From NCBI RefSeq assembly GCF_000327485.1, contig NC_019943.1:1736001-1800000 (forward strand): a DNA stretch of 64,000 bases, read 5' to 3'. The DNA comes from Methanoregula formicica SMSP (lineage in GTDB: Archaea; Halobacteriota; Methanomicrobia; Methanomicrobiales; Methanospirillaceae). The notes beneath the pieces are model-generated. The model was not told the DNA's origin, made no database searches, and saw only the letters and a program-made list of their open reading frames with translations. Shown here in pieces: positions 3,930 through 15,273 of this stretch (positions within the stretch are counted from its first letter, which is position 1; the number at the start of each line of letters is the position of its first letter). The position numbers were made by a program, and so were the translations under genes.

Positions 3930-4949
3930 CTAGAGATATTTCTTCTTCACAATCAGTTCTGCATTCAGTACACTTGCCCCGGCAGCACCACGGATGGTAT
4001 TGTGACCCATGGCAACGAACCGGACGCCTTCACGGAGCCGGCCTACGGACACGGTCATGCCTCTCCCTCTCATGCGGTCAAGGCGGGGCTGGGGCCGATC
4101 GGGCTCCTCGTCAAAGAAGTGTACCGATTCCGCAGGCTGGGTCGGCAGGCCCTTGATCGGGGGCTTGTAGTCCATGTATGCCTTCCGGATTTTGGCAAGC
4201 GGCTCTTTGATATCCGCCCATACGGCCATGGTATGACCGTCAATCACCGGCACGCGGTGGCAGCTTGCGCTGACTTTGAACGGAGCGTTTACGACTTTCT
4301 TTCCTTTCAACGTGCCCATGATCTTGAGCGCTTCCGTCTCCATCTTCTCCTCTTCCTTGCCGATGTACGGGATCACGTTATCGTAGATCGCCATCGCTGC
4401 CACGCCTTCGAATCCTGCTCCGGAGATCGCCTGCATGGTCGCAACCCGGATATCGGTGAACTTGAATTTTCTTAAGGGAGCGAGCGCAGTAACCATCATA
4501 ATGGTTGAGCAGTTCGGGTTCGTGACGATAAAGCCGTCACGGCCCGTATCCTTCTGGACATCGATCAGGCCCAGGTGTTCCGGATTGACTTCCGGTACTA
4601 CGAGCGGGATCGTGGGCTCCATACGGTGGGAACTTGCATTGCTGCACACCGCGATGCCGGCATCGGCAAACTCCGTCTCCGTAGCGGTCGCGATGTCCGC
4701 CGGGAGGGCGGAGAAGACAAGGTCGACATTCTTCATGGCGGAAGGAGAGGTCGGGACGACTTTGATCTTCCCGATATTCTCCGGAAATGGCGTATCAAGG
4801 CGCCATTTCACAATCTTTCCATAGGGTTTTCCCGCACTGCGATCGGAAGCGGCAAGCGTCGTAAGTTTGAACCAGGGATGATCCGCAAGAAGTTCAACGA
4901 ATCGCTGACCAACCGCGCCGGTAGCACCGAGCACTCCAACATTGATCAT
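3930..4949 (-). CDS. asd: aspartate-semialdehyde dehydrogenase
   Basis: A 339-residue enzyme that reduces aspartyl phosphate to aspartate semialdehyde with NADPH, feeding lysine, threonine and methionine synthesis. The Rossmann nucleotide loop [10 protein letters not shown] is at residues 8-17, the catalytic cysteine is in [10 protein letters not shown], and the substrate/catalytic histidine region is [13 protein letters not shown]. The frame extends to 5021, but the upstream residues are not enzyme-like and the ATG at 4949 begins the canonical MINVGVLG. An AGGACC-like ribosome site lies upstream. With dapA and dapB on the same strand it supplies the diaminopimelate branch. Confidence 0.93.
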
Positions 4950-5519: not shown

Positions 5520-6284
5520 TTATTTCTTCAGGCCGAGGACGTCATTCATGTCGTAAATGCCGGGCTTCTTCCCGACAACCCAGCGAGCCGCACGCAGGGC
5601 ACCGCTGGCAAAGACCGAACGATCATAGGCCCGGTGGGAGAGCTCTATCGTCTCGAAGTTCTTCGAGTACATGACCTTATGGTCGCCAACAATGTCCCCG
5701 CCCCGGATCACGTGCACACCGATCTCGTTCTTCCGCTCGGTCATGCCTTCGCGACCGTACAGCTTCTCGCGGGTGCCGGCCTCCTCCTCGATGATCTGGA
5801 GGAGGGTTTTTGCCGTGCCGCTCGGGGCGTCCTTCTTGTTCCGGTGGTGTGCCTCGATAAGCTCGATATCATAGTCTTTCAAGAGCCGTGCCGATTCGCG
5901 CACGAGCTGCTGGAAGATGGCTACCCCGATCGAGAAGTTGGTGGTGATGACAGCCGGGACATGGCCGAGGATCGCTTTCTCCATCTCAGCACGCTGTGCC
6001 GGGGATATACCAGTAGTGCCGATAATCAGGGCGCAATTGTTCCTTGCCGCCACCTGGACATTCCCGACAACCGCACTGGCAATCGTGAAATCGATGACAA
6101 CATCTGCCTTTGTCCTTTTCAGGAGCGCATCGGCATCTTTTGCTTCAACGATCTCGGCGCCGAAAAAGGAACTGGGTTTGAGGTTGATGCCCCCAACCAG
6201 TTCCAGGTCATCGGATTCATGGACCATCCTCCCGAGGGTCTGGCCCATCCTGCCCGAAGCTCCGCAGATGACTACTTTTACCAT
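5520..6284 (-). CDS. dapB: 4-hydroxy-tetrahydrodipicolinate reductase
   Basis: A 254-residue enzyme that reduces the dapA product with NAD(P)H in diaminopimelate/lysine synthesis. The Rossmann loop GASGRMGQTLG is near the N-terminus, the active-site region is ELIEAHHRNKKDAPSGTA with the catalytic His and Lys, and the family motif RGGDIVGDH follows. A TTG at 6290 is also in frame, but the ATG at 6284 is preceded by GGTGAT, which overlaps the dapA stop codon, so translation is probably coupled to dapA. Length fits the family (about 250-270). Confidence 0.94.
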   Translation of the reverse strand: MVKVVICGASGRMGQTLGRMVHESDDLELVGGINLKPSSFFGAEIVEAKDADALLKRTKADVVIDFTIASAVVGNVQVAARNNCALIIGTTGISPAQRAEMEKAILGHVPAVITTNFSIGVAIFQQLVRESARLLKDYDIELIEAHHRNKKDAPSGTAKTLLQIIEEEAGTREKLYGREGMTERKNEIGVHVIRGGDIVGDHKVMYSKNFETIELSHRAYDRSVFASGALRAARWVVGKKPGIYDMNDVLGLKK

Positions 6285-6291
6285 GACCAAA

Positions 6292-7269
6292 TCACCGCGT
6301 GCGCCGTGGTGCAGCGGGTTTGGTTTTCCTTTTTGCCGCTGCTGCCTTCACCGGCTTCTTTGCTGCGGCCTTTGCCTTCGGTACAGATCGCTTGATCGGG
6401 ATGGTTGAAAGCACTTTTTTGAGCTGTTCGGTCTTCTTTGCATCCAGCTCATCGAGCGGGAGACGGACCGGGCCGCCTGCAAGACCGATCAGCTCGACCG
6501 CCTTCTTGACCGGGATAGGGTTGGTGTCGATGAACATAGCACGGTGGAGGGGGGACATGGCATAGTGGATCACCAGGGCCTTCTGGTAATCGCCCTGCCT
6601 GAACGCCTCGTACATCGCCACCATCCGGGCCGGGTCGACATTTGCCGTAACAGAAATGACACCGGACCCGCCAAGGGTAAGGATCGGGAGCGTGATACCA
6701 TCATCGCCGGAGATAACGTGGAAGTCCTCGTCCTGCGTCTCCTCGATCACCCTTGAGATCTGGCCGATATTGCCGCTTGCTTCCTTGATCCCGACGATAT
6801 TCGGGTGCTGCGCCAGTTCCGCGACAAGATCGGGCTCCAGGTTCTGGCCGGTCCGTCCCGGGACATTGTACATGACAACCGGGATGTCGAGGTCTGCAAG
6901 TTTCGTGTAGTGCCTGATGAGCCCCGCACGGTTGGGCTTGTTGTAGTACGGACTGATGACGAGCACGCCGTCCGCACCGATGTCCTTCGCCGCCTTCGTC
7001 AGGCGCACTGCCTCGGCAGTGTTGTTGGAACCCGTACCGGCAAGTACGGGGATCCTGCCATTGACCTTGTCGACCGTGATATCGATGACCTTCTCGTGTT
7101 CATCGAACGTCAGGGTCGCAGACTCTCCAGTCGAACCGCAGGGTACAATCCCGTGGATGCCGCGGGAAAGAAGAAAACTGATGTTCCGCTCAAGACCCGG
7201 GATGTCCAGGCCCATTGCAGGGGTTCTTTTAAAAGGGGTTATGATTGCCGGAAGGACACCTTCGAACAT
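6292..7269 (-). CDS. dapA: 4-hydroxy-tetrahydrodipicolinate synthase with a basic C-terminal tail
   Basis: A 325-residue class I aldolase that condenses pyruvate with aspartate semialdehyde. Family landmarks are GSTGESATL near residue 45, the catalytic Tyr region YNVPGRTGQN and the Schiff-base lysine in VGIKEASG. The catalytic domain ends near residue 292 (QLKKVLSTIPI). It is followed by about 33 residues of Lys/Ala/Pro-rich sequence (KAKAAAKKPVKAAAAKRK) that normal DapA proteins (about 290 residues) lack. The tail resembles the disordered basic ends of nucleic-acid-binding proteins; its function is unknown. The frame stays open into dapB's ribosome site, so the tail is not an obvious frameshift artefact. 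Confidence 0.93.
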   Translation of the reverse strand: MFEGVLPAIITPFKRTPAMGLDIPGLERNISFLLSRGIHGIVPCGSTGESATLTFDEHEKVIDITVDKVNGRIPVLAGTGSNNTAEAVRLTKAAKDIGADGVLVISPYYNKPNRAGLIRHYTKLADLDIPVVMYNVPGRTGQNLEPDLVAELAQHPNIVGIKEASGNIGQISRVIEETQDEDFHVISGDDGITLPILTLGGSGVISVTANVDPARMVAMYEAFRQGDYQKALVIHYAMSPLHRAMFIDTNPIPVKKAVELIGLAGGPVRLPLDELDAKKTEQLKKVLSTIPIKRSVPKAKAAAKKPVKAAAAKRKTKPAAPRRTR

Positions 7270-7276
7270 GAACAGG

Positions 7277-7468
7277 TTATGAGCGTTTCTTGGTATTTAT
7301 TTTTCTTGTAATGTATCCGGCGATCCGGTTCCGGACACGCTTGCTCCCGATGACCGCGGAGGAGCCCAGCTGCTGCTTGTTCTCATCAAAGTTGCTCGAG
7401 AAGTTCTCCCGCTGCTTGTTCAGGAGCTCGGTTCCCATTGTCTTGATATATGACGGCTTGATTCCCAT
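7277..7468 (-). CDS. rps17e: 30S ribosomal protein S17e
   Basis: A 63-residue archaeal S17e. The family signature is visible: MGIKPSYIKTMGTELL, NFDENKQQL and the highly conserved SKRVRNRIAGYITRK. It is a small-subunit protein specific to archaea and eukaryotes. It lies 7 bp upstream of dapA on the same strand, an arrangement familiar in methanogens, so the lysine genes are probably transcribed with a ribosomal protein gene. Confidence 0.93.
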   Translation of the reverse strand: MGIKPSYIKTMGTELLNKQRENFSSNFDENKQQLGSSAVIGSKRVRNRIAGYITRKINTKKRS

Positions 7469-7494: not shown

Positions 7495-8028
7495 TTAAAT
7501 GCGGTTTGAGCAGATAATGATATTGTTTGCAACGTCGACCGGCTCCTCGCCAAGGAGGATAAGCGGGGCGTTTTTATCACTGCGGTCTTCCGTAAAAATC
7601 ACGTCGGGGACTTCCTCCCGGCAGCACGATGCGATTCCCCAGTCCATCGTGTTGATCCCGTTCGGTGCCCGTGCTGCATTAAAAGAGGCACATTCCAGGA
7701 ACAGGTTCCCGTCCAGGACATCAAGGGCCCTGTCGGAATATCGGAGAATCGCAGCACTCCTGCGGAGCGGGTCGAATTTCATGACAGTAAGGATCACCCG
7801 TGCAATCTCCTCGTCCGCGCCGAAGGCACATGCACCAGCAGGTTTTCCAGCGCCCGTGATCCTTCCTTCAACCGCTGCAACGCCCCCGTTGTCCCGGGCG
7901 CCGCGGATCGCGTAACCGATCTGCGCACCCGTCGGGGGAATGAGCTTTTGGCTGATCGATTCCGCAAGCGGGGCAATGGCTTTCTCCAGCTGTGCGATGA
8001 CGGCGTTGCGCTCGAAGGTCGGGTCCAT
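7495..8028 (-). CDS. ThiN-domain protein (thiamine-phosphate synthase family)
   Basis: A 177-residue standalone ThiN-type domain. Family features are LIPPTGAQIGYAIRGARD and VAAVEGRI near the N-terminus, RSAAILRYSD in the middle, NTMDWGIA, then PDVIFTEDRSDKNAP and EEPVDVANNIIICSNRI at the end. ThiN domains in archaea either make thiamine phosphate (usually fused to ThiD as ThiDN) or bind it as the sensor of the repressor ThiR. This copy has neither a ThiD nor a helix-turn-helix domain, so enzyme and sensor roles both remain open. The ATG at 8028 is preferred to one at 8073 because family similarity starts there. Confidence 0.72.
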   Translation of the reverse strand: MDPTFERNAVIAQLEKAIAPLAESISQKLIPPTGAQIGYAIRGARDNGGVAAVEGRITGAGKPAGACAFGADEEIARVILTVMKFDPLRRSAAILRYSDRALDVLDGNLFLECASFNAARAPNGINTMDWGIASCCREEVPDVIFTEDRSDKNAPLILLGEEPVDVANNIIICSNRI

Positions 8029-9028: not shown

Positions 9029-12000
9029 TCATTTGTACTCCCACCTGAGCGGGTCGCGGTCGCGGCGACGCTTCCGGATGTACCCGGCAACCGCTACCGT
9101 GAGGATGGCGATTGCGGCGATGGCTTCCGCCACCAGGAACCAGGGGTTCTTCCACAGCCCCACGGCTTTTCCCGGTGCGGTTGCGGTATCGGCAATGACC
9201 CCGGCAACATCCTGCTGCGGTGCGGGCTGCACCTCTTCGGTCGGCCACGGGGTGATCCTCACCTTCTGTTTCGTGGGTTCGGTTTGGACCGGGGTTGCGG
9301 TCGGCGTGGCGGTCGCTGTCCCCGTTGCCGTGACCGCAGGAATTGCCGCGGTGGGCGGGTAATAGGAATAACTGTCGCCGTACTCATAGTACGACCAGGA
9401 CGATGATGAACTGCTGCTGGTCGTTGTCGTCACCGGCGCGTATGCGGTCAGGACGAATGTCGAGAGGCCGGTGGGGGAGATGGCGACGAAGTAGTCGTTG
9501 CCGTCCGCAGCGCAGAGGCCGGTCCATTCGGTTGCGAGGAACGTGACCGTGCCTTCGTCCGACCGGTGCATGACTTTGATCCGGGAGGTCCCGCCGTTGT
9601 CCTCGACCCAGGTGTGGTTGACGGCCATCGTGATGTTGGCGCTTTTGATGATGCCGCCGCTCCCGTAGTTGTCAATACCGGACTTCGAGAAGTATACCGT
9701 GTACGCGGTGGCGATGATGTTCTTCTTTTCCGATGCGGCGAGAATGGTGAACGAGCTCCAGACCGAGGAGTCCGGGTCGGAGGTGATAGTGCTGTTGATC
9801 GCGGCCGAGCTATTCGGGAGCTGCGAGAGCGTAAGGGTAAGCGTCACATTCGGTTTGCCGAGCGAGTCGATATTCACGCTGACGTTGGTGGCAACGGCCT
9901 CCAGGCTCTTTACCGTGCCGGTCACGTTCCCGGAGTCGGTCACGGCAGGAGCATCGAGAGTGATCTTCAGGTGGTCCCAGGCAGTGCCGACATTGTCCAC
10001 CGTGACGATATTCGTATTGGTACTGTCGATGGTTGCATTGGCGGCGCTGATGTTGATGCCCTGGCTCGATCCGGTGGCGTTTGTCACGATACCCGGGAGT
10101 TCGAAGGTCTTGTTCGTGCTGACCGGGTTGATTACTGTGATGTAGTTTGTCCGGATCTTCGTATCGGAGCCCTTGCTGTTGGTTGCGTTGAGCTTGACCG
10201 AATAGGTGCCGGCTTTCGTGTAGGTGTAGTCCGGGATCTGTTTTGCTGAGGTACCGTCATCGCCGAAATCCCATGCCCAGCCGGTCGGCGTGTTGAGCGA
10301 GGTGTCCCTGAACCTCGGGTTGAACGGTGCGATGCCTTCGGTCTGGCTGGCGGCGAAGTCCGCGACCGGGGGGATCACCTTCGCGGTGACGGAGTACCCG
10401 CTATCGATGGGGTTGGTCCAGCCCATGCCGGACGAGGCACGGTACCCGTACACGTTGAAGACGGCGTTGTCCGGAAGGTTTGTGAACGCGTAGTCGACCC
10501 GGACCGCGCCGTTGTTCTTCAGGCCCGGACTGCTGCTGAGCAGGCCGGATCTCGTGTCGATGAACATCAGCCGGTACTGGCTGGCCGGGCTGTTCATCTC
10601 CTCTCCCTTGAAGAGCGGGTAGTCCGCGTTGCCCTGCGTGGGTTTCCAGCTCTGCGGGCCGTAGAAGAGGTCGGCTTTCGTGAACGTCTGGTCGAGGGCC
10701 GTGGACTGGTAGGTGTACGTGCCTGCAGACGGTGCTTTTCCAGAAACCGGCGTCCACGTGTACCCGCTGGTCTTGATCCGGGCCGTGAAATCGTCCGGGA
10801 TGGTGCCGTTGACCGCCAGCAGGAGGACGACCTCGTCTTCGTACGAATCCCCGGTGATATAGAATGTCCCGGACTGGCTGTTCGTTATCGTGATCTTGTT
10901 GGACGTGTCCGCAGGATCGGTCGAGAGATGGAGCACGCCAAGACCGCCCGATCCCGTCGGGAGGTAATACGTGCCGTTGTCGTTATCGTTGAACCGGATG
11001 CCGTCGTGGTTCGCTGTCCGGATGTATGTCTTGTTGTTACCCGGGACCGGGCCGGTGGCGTTGACCACGTACACGAGGCCGGCCTTTGTAACGGTGCTGC
11101 TTCCCCCGGCATTAGTTACCGTGAGCTTGACCGGGTAGGTCCCGGCCGAGCCGTAGGTGTGTGTCGGGTCCCGGTACGTCGAGGTCGCAGTATCACCGAA
11201 GTTCCAGGACCATGACGTCGGGCTGTTGGTCGAGGTGTCGGTGAAGGTTACGGCCAGCGGGGCGACGCCGTTGACCTGGGTGGCGGTGAAGGAGGCGACA
11301 GGGGAGGGAGTGGGTGTGCCGCTGCCACCACAGGTGGTGGCGGAACCGGCGCAGAAGTCGTCGATGTTGGCATTCATTCCCAGACTATTCACATCGAATG
11401 CAACTTGCACCAGATGAACTCCGGTGTACCCGGATATCGGGACTCTATATTGTGTCCAGCTATGGGCGCATATATCGGTCTGGACCAAGACACCATCGAT
11501 ATAGGTTTTAAAATACTGGTTATAAGAACTACTGCCGTCCTCATATCCCCAGAACGAGATGTTGGAAATATCAGTCAGATCGACATGCTGCGCAATGTAA
11601 TCATATGTAGTGTGACCCATATAATCGAAAAAAACGGCATAATTTCCAGTATGTACTTTACTTGAGGAGACGGATGTATACCCAACGCCTGCGGTCCAGT
11701 CTGTCAGATCTCCCGTCTCGAATCCGGGGTTACTGAACCGGTTGGTTGCCACTGATGGAGTGACCGTGATGAGATTTGTTTTCAGGAGACTGTCATTGCC
11801 CCCGCCATTCATTACGGTCAGGTTAACCGTGTATGTCCCAGGCGCATACCAATGGATCGGGTTCTGTTCGGTCGAGGTGATTCCATCCCCGAAGTCCCAC
11901 GACCAAGCAACCGGGGAATTGGTTGAGGTATCGTTGAACTGAACCGCTACAGGTGAGATACCTGAGGTGACATCCGCAGTGAAGTCCGCAACCGGAACCG

Positions 12001-14854
12001 GGGGAACGGATATGTTTATTGTCCGGGTCGTTAAGTCTGTGCCTTTTATATTCGTCGCCGTGAGTTTTACTGAGTAAGTCCCCCCTGAGGCAAATGGGTG
12101 GGACGGGTTCTGGAGGGTCGATGTAGTACCGTCACCGAAGTCCCAGAGCCAGGATTGCGGGACATTTGCCGATGTGTCGGTAAACCGGATGGGAACAAGA
12201 TTATATTCCGATGTCGTACTTGGTGAGAATCCAGCAACCGGAGCTGCCGGAATCCCGATGACCGAATACCCACTGGCACCGTAGGTGGAGCCCCCCAGGA
12301 CATCGTTGGTCATGATCATGGTACCGTGATTACTGGCAAGATACCACCCGTACGCATTGAATGCAGCGAAACTCGTCAGGTTGGTGAACGCATATTCAAT
12401 TTTGATATTGTCATATGCTTTTCCGGCGTTCAGGTCGATGAACATGATCCGGAACTGGTTGATGGGATCGGCCTGGTCCTCCCCGTAATAGATCGGATAT
12501 CCATCGGGTTTCCAGCTCTGGGGGCCGTAGATGAAATCATCCTTCGTGAATGTCTGGTCTACGGCGCCTTCGACATAATTCCACACTGACGGTAAGCCCC
12601 CATTAGAATAGGCAGGACCGGGAGGCGTCCAGTTGTCCCCGCTCGACCGGATATGGACACGGAAATCATCGGGGATCGTCCCGTTGACGGCGAGCATCAG
12701 GATCCCCTCGGGCACGGTCGATTGTCCTCCGGTATGGGTGAAATAGAATGTACCGGACTGGTTGGTGGTGGTGGTTATATCAGAGACGGAGTTTCCCGAT
12801 GAGATGTGCAGGGCGTTCAGTCCCCCCATCGTGGCGAAAGAGTAGGTATTGGGGACATAGACAAGATTGGTGCCGTTGATATCGTACTTGACTCCCTCGT
12901 CATTGGCTACGTAGAGATAGGGGTAGTCCATATTTATAGGCCCTGGCGTTACGACCGTGATGAATCCCGGTTTTGAAAGATTGGTTCCCCAGCCGATGGC
13001 ATTTTTTGCGGTAAGATTTACCATATAGGTGCCTGAACTTGCATACGTGTGGACCGGATTCTGCATGGTCGCATTTTCATTGCTCCCGTCCCCGAAGTCC
13101 CAAAGCCACGCGGTTGGCTGAAGGGTCGAGGTGTCGTGGAACTGCACGGTCAGGGGCGCTTTTCCGCTTACTCTTGGGGATCCGGTAAATGAGACAACCG
13201 GCGCAGTCGAATAGAGCGTGATATATCCTGTTTTGCTTGTCTTGTTGCTCCCAGCTAAGTTGGTTGCCGTCAGGTTGACGGTATATGTTACCGTATCTGT
13301 TCCTGTAGTGGAATAAGAATGGGTTGGATTCTGAATATCCGATGTCACACCATCCCCGAAGTCCCAGTGCCACAATGTTGGTGAACCTGTCGACGTGTCG
13401 GTAAACTGAACGGTAAACGGGCTTTTCCCGGAGGTGACGTCCGATGTGAAACCTGCGGCCGGTGGAGAATAAACCTTGATATAATCAGATTTGATTGCAT
13501 AGTTTGTTCCACTGGCGTGAGTGATCGTCAGTTTGACGGTATATGAACCGGGATTTGCATAGGAATGCTCCGGGTTCTGTTCGTCCGATGTCATGCCATC
13601 CCCGAAGTCCCAGTGCCACGTAGTTACCGCGAGAGGCGATGAGCCTATGAACTTAATGCTAAGAGGTGCTGAACCATTGATTGGACTTGCGGAAAAGTCT
13701 ACTACACCAGTAAATGCATATAATCCCCTACTGCCGGAATAACTTGTAATATATAGTGTTCCATCCGAACCGATTGAGGGAGAACCATCAGGTCTTACTC
13801 CGTTAGTAAGATAAAACCATTTCAGAGTTCCAGTTGGATTGAGAGCATAGATTTTACCATCACGACTTCCGATGTAGATGGTTCCATCCGCACCAATTGC
13901 AGGTGAAGCCCATAATATTACACCTCCCGTAGTGTAGCTCCATTTCAGGGTTCCATCCGGGTTCCATGCATATACCTTTTTATCATTGCATCCGACGTAA
14001 ATAGTTCCATCCGCACCAACTGCAGCTGAACCATACATTTTTCCTCCTGTCGTATTGCTCCATTTCAGGGTTCCATCCGAATTAAATGCATAAAATTTGG
14101 AAGTACTACTCGAACCGATATAGATTGTTCCATCTGATCCAATCACTGGTGAGGCCCTGAAAGGCACATTTGCAGAAGAATTACTCCACTTCAGGGTTCC
14201 ATCCGGATTATATGCATAGAGGGTATTCTTTGATTCACTTCCAATGTAAATGGTGCCATCCGATCCAATCGCCGGGGTAGCATATTGTGCGGTTCCTGTC
14301 GTATTGCTCCATTTCAGGGTTCCATCTTGGGGATCGAACGAATATAATGCATCGGCTCCAACATAAATCGTTCCATCTGCACCAATCGCAGGTGAACCAT
14401 ATAGGGAAGTACCGAACGTAGCGGATTGCCACTTTTTGGTTCCGTTTGGATTAATTGCGAAAAGCTTATAATCGTTACTCTCCACATAGATGGTTCCATC
14501 TGCACCAATTGCAGGCGAACCATAAATAAAAGATGTCGAACTACTCAACGATACCTGCCACTTTTGAGTTCCGTTTGGATCCAAAGCTCGGAGATTCGCA
14601 TCCTGACTTCCAATATAAATGGTCCCATCAAATCCAATAACTGGATTAACGTACCAAAAGTCTCCAGCATTCGTATAAATCCATTTGGTTGTATTTGATT
14701 GTGATCCGGTATACTGAGATCGTCCAGTGTTCTGGAGATCGTGCTGGAATTTTGGCCATGCAGTATTCGCAAGCTCTGCTGCGACCGGAACAAACAACAG
14801 GGCAAGGAAAAGAATAAGGATTCCTATACGGAATCTGAACTCATATATTTTCAT
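9029..14854 (-). CDS. giant cell-surface protein: PQQ-like propeller, seven PKD domains, C-terminal membrane anchor
   Basis: A 1941-residue exported protein. Residues 1-26 are a signal peptide (IGILILFLALLFVPVAA). Residues about 35-385 hold eight or more PQQ-like propeller repeats of the type IGADGTIYVGS...NPDGTLKW. PKD domains with the WDFGDG motif lie near 390, 465, 550, 870, 955, 1180 and 1500. Two copies of a domain shared with the neighbouring protein (LNALHISS/LGVLHLST, VNGTIPDDF, YGPQSWKP) lie near 640-865 and 1275-1495, and a lectin-like NPGFETGDLTDW domain near 1036-1175. A Ser/Thr/Pro-rich stalk, a membrane helix (WFLVAEAIAAIAILTVAVAGY) and a basic tail end it. It is likely an envelope or adhesion protein. 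The ATG at 14854 follows GGGGGAT. Confidence 0.88.
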   Translation of the reverse strand: MKIYEFRFRIGILILFLALLFVPVAAELANTAWPKFQHDLQNTGRSQYTGSQSNTTKWIYTNAGDFWYVNPVIGFDGTIYIGSQDANLRALDPNGTQKWQVSLSSSTSFIYGSPAIGADGTIYVESNDYKLFAINPNGTKKWQSATFGTSLYGSPAIGADGTIYVGADALYSFDPQDGTLKWSNTTGTAQYATPAIGSDGTIYIGSESKNTLYAYNPDGTLKWSNSSANVPFRASPVIGSDGTIYIGSSSTSKFYAFNSDGTLKWSNTTGGKMYGSAAVGADGTIYVGCNDKKVYAWNPDGTLKWSYTTGGVILWASPAIGADGTIYIGSRDGKIYALNPTGTLKWFYLTNGVRPDGSPSIGSDGTLYITSYSGSRGLYAFTGVVDFSASPINGSAPLSIKFIGSSPLAVTTWHWDFGDGMTSDEQNPEHSYANPGSYTVKLTITHASGTNYAIKSDYIKVYSPPAAGFTSDVTSGKSPFTVQFTDTSTGSPTLWHWDFGDGVTSDIQNPTHSYSTTGTDTVTYTVNLTATNLAGSNKTSKTGYITLYSTAPVVSFTGSPRVSGKAPLTVQFHDTSTLQPTAWLWDFGDGSNENATMQNPVHTYASSGTYMVNLTAKNAIGWGTNLSKPGFITVVTPGPINMDYPYLYVANDEGVKYDINGTNLVYVPNTYSFATMGGLNALHISSGNSVSDITTTTNQSGTFYFTHTGGQSTVPEGILMLAVNGTIPDDFRVHIRSSGDNWTPPGPAYSNGGLPSVWNYVEGAVDQTFTKDDFIYGPQSWKPDGYPIYYGEDQADPINQFRIMFIDLNAGKAYDNIKIEYAFTNLTSFAAFNAYGWYLASNHGTMIMTNDVLGGSTYGASGYSVIGIPAAPVAGFSPSTTSEYNLVPIRFTDTSANVPQSWLWDFGDGTTSTLQNPSHPFASGGTYSVKLTATNIKGTDLTTRTINISVPPVPVADFTADVTSGISPVAVQFNDTSTNSPVAWSWDFGDGITSTEQNPIHWYAPGTYTVNLTVMNGGGNDSLLKTNLITVTPSVATNRFSNPGFETGDLTDWTAGVGYTSVSSSKVHTGNYAVFFDYMGHTTYDYIAQHVDLTDISNISFWGYEDGSSSYNQYFKTYIDGVLVQTDICAHSWTQYRVPISGYTGVHLVQVAFDVNSLGMNANIDDFCAGSATTCGGSGTPTPSPVASFTATQVNGVAPLAVTFTDTSTNSPTSWSWNFGDTATSTYRDPTHTYGSAGTYPVKLTVTNAGGSSTVTKAGLVYVVNATGPVPGNNKTYIRTANHDGIRFNDNDNGTYYLPTGSGGLGVLHLSTDPADTSNKITITNSQSGTFYITGDSYEDEVVLLLAVNGTIPDDFTARIKTSGYTWTPVSGKAPSAGTYTYQSTALDQTFTKADLFYGPQSWKPTQGNADYPLFKGEEMNSPASQYRLMFIDTRSGLLSSSPGLKNNGAVRVDYAFTNLPDNAVFNVYGYRASSGMGWTNPIDSGYSVTAKVIPPVADFAASQTEGIAPFNPRFRDTSLNTPTGWAWDFGDDGTSAKQIPDYTYTKAGTYSVKLNATNSKGSDTKIRTNYITVINPVSTNKTFELPGIVTNATGSSQGINISAANATIDSTNTNIVTVDNVGTAWDHLKITLDAPAVTDSGNVTGTVKSLEAVATNVSVNIDSLGKPNVTLTLTLSQLPNSSAAINSTITSDPDSSVWSSFTILAASEKKNIIATAYTVYFSKSGIDNYGSGGIIKSANITMAVNHTWVEDNGGTSRIKVMHRSDEGTVTFLATEWTGLCAADGNDYFVAISPTGLSTFVLTAYAPVTTTTSSSSSSSWSYYEYGDSYSYYPPTAAIPAVTATGTATATPTATPVQTEPTKQKVRITPWPTEEVQPAPQQDVAGVIADTATAPGKAVGLWKNPWFLVAEAIAAIAILTVAVAGYIRKRRRDRDPLRWEYK

Positions 14855-15273
14855 ATCCCCCACACTTCCTCTGGGAGGGAGAATGTACGGCGGATATTCC
14901 CGGTGAATGAACACGAGAACCCTACTTCGTAACGGGTTATCTGGTTCATAGTTATATTGTCAGGGGGTATTAGGAATCTTGTTGCCATCCGCGAGATCAT
15001 TAGAACAACAATATCCGGAACAAACAGGAAGAAGGACTGGGTAGGGAAACAGCAAATCATATCCATTATTGTCATATTTTGAAAAGGGCTACGTAAATTG
15101 ATTTCTATTTACATTTTTAAAAAGTTAATATTTTATTTTTTACAAAAAGATAAGACAAGAGTACGTGTAAATCCCAAATAATAATCAGGTGTTTCTCGTT
15201 GAAAATATCCAAAAAAAGAGGGATTTACTGCCGAAATTCGACATCACTCGGCTTTAATAATTTCAAGTTAAGG
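14855..15273 (-). promoter_or_regulatory. AT-rich region between two surface-protein genes
   Basis: This 419-bp gap follows the 15.3-kb gene and precedes the giant gene on the minus strand. Its right half is strongly AT-rich (15100-15160, with runs such as ttaatattttattttttac), suitable for a terminator of one gene and a promoter of the next. The motif tcatattttga at about 15071-15081 also occurs in the cassette promoters at 16.3, 18.3 and 19.5 kb. No gene is seen. Confidence 0.4.

Follow-up and report, generated by a model that had tools for sequence, protein, structure and literature searches.

A histone H1-like basic tail on DapA of Methanoregula and a sister genus, a candidate polycationic tether whose last codons also serve the dapB ribosome binding site

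Polycationic tails are already known on nucleoid and granule proteins, and HupS bears a lysine-rich one. In Streptomyces, this low-complexity HupS tail is linked to DNA affinity (PMC11229371). The C-terminal KPAA domains of AlgP and PhaF in Pseudomonas are disordered, rich in Lys, Ala and Pro, and likened to histone H1; the KPAA tail of AlgP is needed for the spacing of polyphosphate granules, and KPAA peptides bind DNA (PMC9239181). The lysine-repeat tail of actinobacterial topoisomerase I is likewise a Lys-rich C-terminal extension on an enzyme, present in one clade only (PMC7398561). The tail of 4-hydroxy-tetrahydrodipicolinate synthase (DapA) described here resembles these tails in its Lys-rich composition, its predicted disorder and its restriction to one clade. 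Our literature search, judged from listings, found nothing on a Lys-rich C-terminal extension of dihydrodipicolinate synthase; for Methanoregula it found nothing on lysine-rich tails nor, by title, on rubredoxin tails.

The window, the whole stretch of 64,000 nucleotides that was analysed, belongs to a genome consisting of a single contig of 2,820,858 bases, the closest named relatives of which are Methanoregula. The features around dapA are the following.

3930..4943, minus strand: aspartate-semialdehyde dehydrogenase gene (asd), of the same pathway, downstream of dapB (Pfam Semialdhyde_dh / dhC)
5520..6284, minus strand: dapB, dihydrodipicolinate reductase (Pfam DapB_N/DapB_C), with its ATG at 6284, 7 bases past the dapA stop
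6291..6296, minus strand: GGTGAT, Shine-Dalgarno-like (SD) site of dapB, made up of the GG that closes the terminal Arg codon, the TGA stop and a single further base
6292..7269, minus strand: dapA, 325 aa including the C-terminal tail (ORF; Pfam DHDPS; TIGR00674)
6295..6396, minus strand: Lys/Ala/Pro-rich H1-like tail, DapA residues 292-325, net +14 (composition; pLDDT under 50)
7277..7468, minus strand: small ORF upstream of dapA, S17e-like (motif)
7495..8028, minus strand: ThiN-domain protein, upstream of the S17e-like ORF (Pfam ThiN)

On the minus strand, the order is therefore ThiN-domain protein, S17e-like ORF, dapA and dapB, with asd further on. The small ORF is presumably ribosomal protein S17e, and an S17e-like motif stands directly upstream of dapA in 75 of the 78 loci with enough sequence. 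Elsewhere in the window, a large minus-strand ORF (9029-14914, 1961 aa) contains repeats that by eye we take to be PKD-like, and apparently encodes a surface protein.

The dapA ORF runs from an ATG start to a TGA stop, and its product is DapA by equivalog and fold match. Pfam DHDPS spans residues 2-288, and the NCBIfam dapA equivalog TIGR00674 covers residues 4-289 with 349.3 bits, above its cut-off of 206.15. The fold is that of solved DapA structures (Foldseek match to 2yxg_B, E 1.4e-31, TMt 0.90). PDB 2yxg, the top solved-structure match, has the same whole catalytic domain at 50-51% identity over query residues 1-288; its chain ends after 289 residues, and none of the best 60 solved matches aligned to the tail of the window's DapA. 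The first-pass annotation had placed the end of the catalytic domain at about residue 292 and the tail outside the DapA fold, and both statements agree with these boundaries. It had also described a tail rich in Lys, Ala and Pro, which is borne out by residues 292-325 (9 K, 5 R, 10 A, 4 P, 0 D/E, with no acidic residue after 291), and a clean reading to the dapB ribosome site, where we find the stop, the GGTGAT lying across it and the 7-base gap to the dapB ATG. Two points go beyond that annotation, namely the SD at the tail's end and the tails on unrelated proteins of the clade; nucleic acid binding, which it took to be usual for such tails, is here a candidate role.

In an AlphaFold2 model, computed from a shallow alignment of 20 rows, the final helix of DapA spans residues 277-287, and residues 292-325 have pLDDT under 50 and no secondary structure; confidence is also low at 247-275, which we ascribe to the shallow alignment. 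Pooled over 44 genomes, the DapA tails amount to 1381 residues with 26.7% K, 20.1% A, 10.5% R and 8.8% P (K+R 37.2%), against 1.4% D+E and 0.2% aromatic residues. The tail thus has the Lys/Ala/Pro-rich composition, almost free of acidic and aromatic residues, and the predicted intrinsic disorder by which H1-like and KPAA-type tails are recognised. Tandem units such as KPAA were not seen on reading the 44 tail sequences. Since tandem units were not seen on that reading and binding is inferred, the DapA tail is best said to work like an H1/KPAA-type tail, in composition and predicted disorder, rather than to be one.

The family search covered 108 genomes and matched dapA in 103. Every readable dapA gene of two genera, 44 in total, carries the tail; the genera are the window's own (36, own genome included) and its sister genus, here called g8 (8), and there is no loss among these 44 genomes. 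Three further genomes of the window's genus (G038, G040, G047) gave no dapA match and stand outside the 44; one of them is listed as 96% complete. In the other 15 genera of the family, with one genome read in each, DapA is without a tail and ends at residue 286-292, and in 44 untailed loci of a named collection (L037-L080) it ends at 291 or 292. An order-wide search of 185 genomes matched 180, and among the matches listed, any from another genus that extends beyond residue 300 does so through a stop codon. Apparent tails in several untailed relatives (tblastn and whole-genome matches that seemed to reach residue 320 or further) were rejected as tails, because the DNA shows the alignments running through the stop into the other frame of dapB. 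A stop inside the dapA match of G035 falls after the tail, which is present. In a tree of the DapA core (95 rows), a single change explains the tail, on a branch with SH-aLRT 96, and the tail was gained once, in the common ancestor of the two genera.

Past residue 291 the tail measures 17-52 residues, a three-fold variation, and its sequence is poorly conserved. The net charge, in contrast to sequence and length, persists, being +5 to +18 in each of the 44 tails and scaling with length (r = 0.80), as does the near-absence of acidic residues. Neutral simulations were started from the observed tails with stops forbidden (L108, with a run of N, was excluded here and from dN/dS). With core 4-fold base frequencies, they gave 4.8% D+E at 0.2 and 6.9% at 0.8 substitutions per site; with the tail's own base frequencies they gave 6.5% at 0.2 and 11.2% at 0.8 (overall range 6.5-12.4%). 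The pooled synonymous divergence of the compared pairs is about 0.6 in the core and 0.8 in the tail, where the simulated values lie well above the observed 1.4%, so that the scarcity of acidic residues is not drift. The pooled dN/dS over 17 pairs is 0.40 for the tail and 0.053 for the core, although the difficulty of aligning low-complexity tails pushes dN upwards and some of the pairs have saturated dS. Sequence is thus weakly constrained and charge strongly, which is typical of a disordered polycation. The first-pass annotation had held that a tail unique to this genome and variable in length would suggest neutral drift, and had proposed an alignment across Methanomicrobiales as a check. Length does vary, but uniqueness and neutral drift do not hold, as the tail is kept in 44 of 44 genes of two genera, absent from the other genera read, and its charge is retained against the neutral expectation.

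The end of the tail has a further role at the level of RNA. In the 44 untailed loci, an ATG overlaps the dapA stop by 8 bases (43 loci) or 11 (one locus), and the SD lies inside dapA codons 284-287 or thereabouts, most often as GGAGGT or AGGTG; in one of these loci (L075) the sequence after the overlapping ATG is unlike dapB. The tailed genes have lost this internal SD, AAGGTGC at codons 285-287 being seen in one of 44, and the dapB start lies 3-9 bases past the stop in 42 of 44. An SD of at least 4 bases begins in the last dapA codons in 41 of the 44 tailed genes. The GGTGAT of the window is complementary to the anti-SD GGATCACCTCCT, which occurs twice in the genome at what are taken as putative 16S ends. 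Arg is the terminal residue of 41 of 44 tails, and its codon ends in GG in 37 of these 41 vs 223 of 445 Arg codons in the core (p 3e-7, Fisher test); together with the SD at the tail end, this makes the conserved terminal Arg at least partly an RNA feature. An overlapping junction with the SD in the dapA core has thus been converted to a spaced junction, in which the final codon of the tail and the stop together form the SD. The last residues of the tail are partly dictated by RNA, and the remainder is not. At this junction, the same codons can be seen clearly to serve both a protein tail and a ribosome binding site. In one exception (L119, from G011), dapB lies 53 bases downstream with another SD, and the tail is the shortest, has no terminal Arg and contains two Asp; as a single case, it is suggestive of a link between tail and junction. 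Third codon positions of the tail are 45.5% A, vs 15.9% in the DapA core, with A far above T. In the 42 of 44 tailed genes used for RNA-fold tests (L108 and L119 were left out), the tail RNA shows less structure than its synonymous recodings do, with a mean z of +1.1 vs -0.3 to -0.8 in core windows.

Similar tails occur on other proteins of the clade. A composition scan for strict H1-like 30-residue stretches covered 1.249 Mb (44%) of the genome, with 1446 crude gene calls, and found them in five: DapA and the four proteins below. At this frequency, the stretch in DapA is beyond chance.

L161:15240-15869 (G000:C1:2565240-2565869), minus strand: double rubredoxin, 209 aa, with an H1-like K/A-rich N-terminal tail (about 80 residues) followed by two rubredoxin domains
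L216:5704-6681 (G000:C1:1715704-1716681), minus strand: branched-chain aminotransferase (IlvE) with an H1-like C-terminal tail
L325:18030-19121, plus strand: Cbf5-like pseudouridine synthase (TruB_N, PUA) with a K-rich C-terminal tail
L313:12463-13155, minus strand: 230-aa protein that matches no Pfam family and has an internal stretch rich in K, P and A

Among the tailed enzymes, only the Cbf5-like pseudouridine synthase has RNA as its substrate. An Arg-rich ORF picked up by the composition scan (L151) was judged spurious, and the matches at relaxed thresholds mostly looked like ordinary basic stretches. Scans of 400 kb each found no strict tail in an untailed genus (G033, 447 calls) or in a second genome of the window's genus (G068, 475 calls), the dapA and rubredoxin genes of which lie outside the sampled stretches. 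Protein searches of the own genome with the DapA or rubredoxin tail as query returned only themselves, by a method insensitive to low-complexity tails.

In the same 108 genomes, the best rubredoxin match extends into the tail for 32 of the 39 genomes in the window's genus and for 7 of the 8 in g8, the rest being partial matches or paralogues (counted by eye). Full-length rubredoxin matches in other genera begin at residue 69-85, again by eye, except for two with alignments crossing several stops. Twenty-nine of 30 rubredoxin loci were read, and all have tails. This tail occurs only in the window's genus and g8, and is shorter in the latter. Across the two genera, IlvE was read from 43 genomes (L263/G066, with a run of N, is left out of the count), and 7 of 42 have a long tail; the other 35 end at 289-292, mostly in KK, and IlvE of 7 genomes in other genera ends at 288-289. 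The IlvE tree (49 rows) needs three changes, two of them forced by well supported branches, which puts the number of tail gains inside the two genera at about three. Composition and clade are common to the tailed proteins, not pathway or fold.

Because DapA normally forms tetramers, its tails, four in number and of about +12 apiece, would act as a multivalent electrostatic tether, holding the enzyme on a polyanion, which may be RNA or ribosomes, nucleoid DNA, or polyphosphate; the tail itself would take no part in catalysis. That the DapA tail is a selected polycationic tether to polyanions has, in our judgement, about an even chance of being right. Since two histone-fold genes occur in the genome, as does a polyphosphate kinase, DNA and polyphosphate are both possible partners, and RNA is always available; these facts fit a tether and do not discriminate among partners. 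Given the similar tails on two other metabolic proteins of these genera, the tether appears to be a clade-level habit that does not concern lysine synthesis as such. Against it stands the tail's dN/dS, a far weaker constraint than that of the core, partly on uncertain alignments and saturated dS. The shift to a less acidic DapA core and DapB in the clade, the use of the tail's end at the RNA level and the 400 kb of G068 with no strict tail count against it as well.

Four other explanations bear on the same observations. The tail might be kept mainly because its 3' end supplies dapB with an SD and with a leader that is rich in A and unstructured, the encoded residues being tolerated. The terminal Arg codons, the SD moved from codons 284-287 to the stop, the weakly structured RNA and the exceptional L119 all favour this, but two or three codons suffice for an SD and the tail has 17-52. 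The missing D/E are moreover a protein-level signature, and the double rubredoxin and IlvE have tails of like composition with no such junction role shown for them. Third positions of the rubredoxin tail are also rich in A (40.1% vs 15.4%, A far above T), so that this bias is not only about dapB, and we regard a purely translational role as rather unlikely. A lineage with a generally more basic proteome, as in low-salt habitats, could also have produced the tail as an extreme form serving solubility and not binding. The DapA core and DapB of the tailed clade are indeed less acidic than those of relatives (net charge -6.7 vs -15.6 for the core, +2.6 vs -3.4 for DapB), and predicted proteome pI is reported to differ between marine and freshwater prokaryotes (PMC6706942). 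Part of the tail charge may reflect this general shift of the clade. The tail, however, takes DapA past neutralisation, from net negative to positive (mean +5.3 for tailed proteins), and with H1-like stretches in 5 of 1446 gene calls (44% of the genome) the tails are not proteome-wide; charge adaptation is accordingly an unlikely account of them.

Slippage could yield K/A-rich ends that are merely tolerated, which would suit the three-fold length range, the poor sequence conservation and the sporadic IlvE tails. The absence of losses in 44 genomes, a dN/dS below 1, and charge and D/E scarcity outside the neutral simulations already disfavour such functionless expansion, and we hold it improbable. 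The adjoining dapB and nearby asd would agree with substrate channelling, the basic tail holding DapA to a partner from the pathway by way of an acidic patch. In the tailed clade, however, the charge of DapB is shifted to the basic rather than the acidic side, and unrelated proteins bear the same kind of tail, which leaves little likelihood for such docking. Extending the polyanion tether beyond DapA, we put forward, tentatively and with some doubt, that DapA, the branched-chain aminotransferase and the double rubredoxin repeatedly and convergently gained H1-like tails, through which all three are recruited to a single polyanionic scaffold, be it nucleoid, RNA and ribosomes, or polyphosphate granules. 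If true, archaeal metabolism would here be organised in a manner specific to one clade. Selected tails that recur on biosynthetic enzymes and a redox protein of a single archaeal lineage would suggest that simple electrostatics arranges metabolism in space.

Compared with the described systems, the DapA tail differs in size, arrangement and bearer. The AlgP and PhaF domains have 154-195 residues in tandem KPAA and belong to granule- or DNA-associated proteins, whereas the DapA tail has 17-52 residues, is not tandem and sits on a metabolic enzyme (PMC9239181). By analogy, AlgP may nonetheless serve as a precedent for a Lys/Ala/Pro tail with both a polyphosphate-granule role and DNA binding (PMC9239181). 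Actinobacterial topoisomerase I, unlike DapA, already acts on DNA (PMC7398561), and the HupS tail sits on an HU nucleoid protein, whereas DapA is a biosynthetic enzyme (PMC11229371). What is new here is that polycationic tails of a known kind, similar to those of AlgP, PhaF and TopA, are now found on anabolic enzymes.
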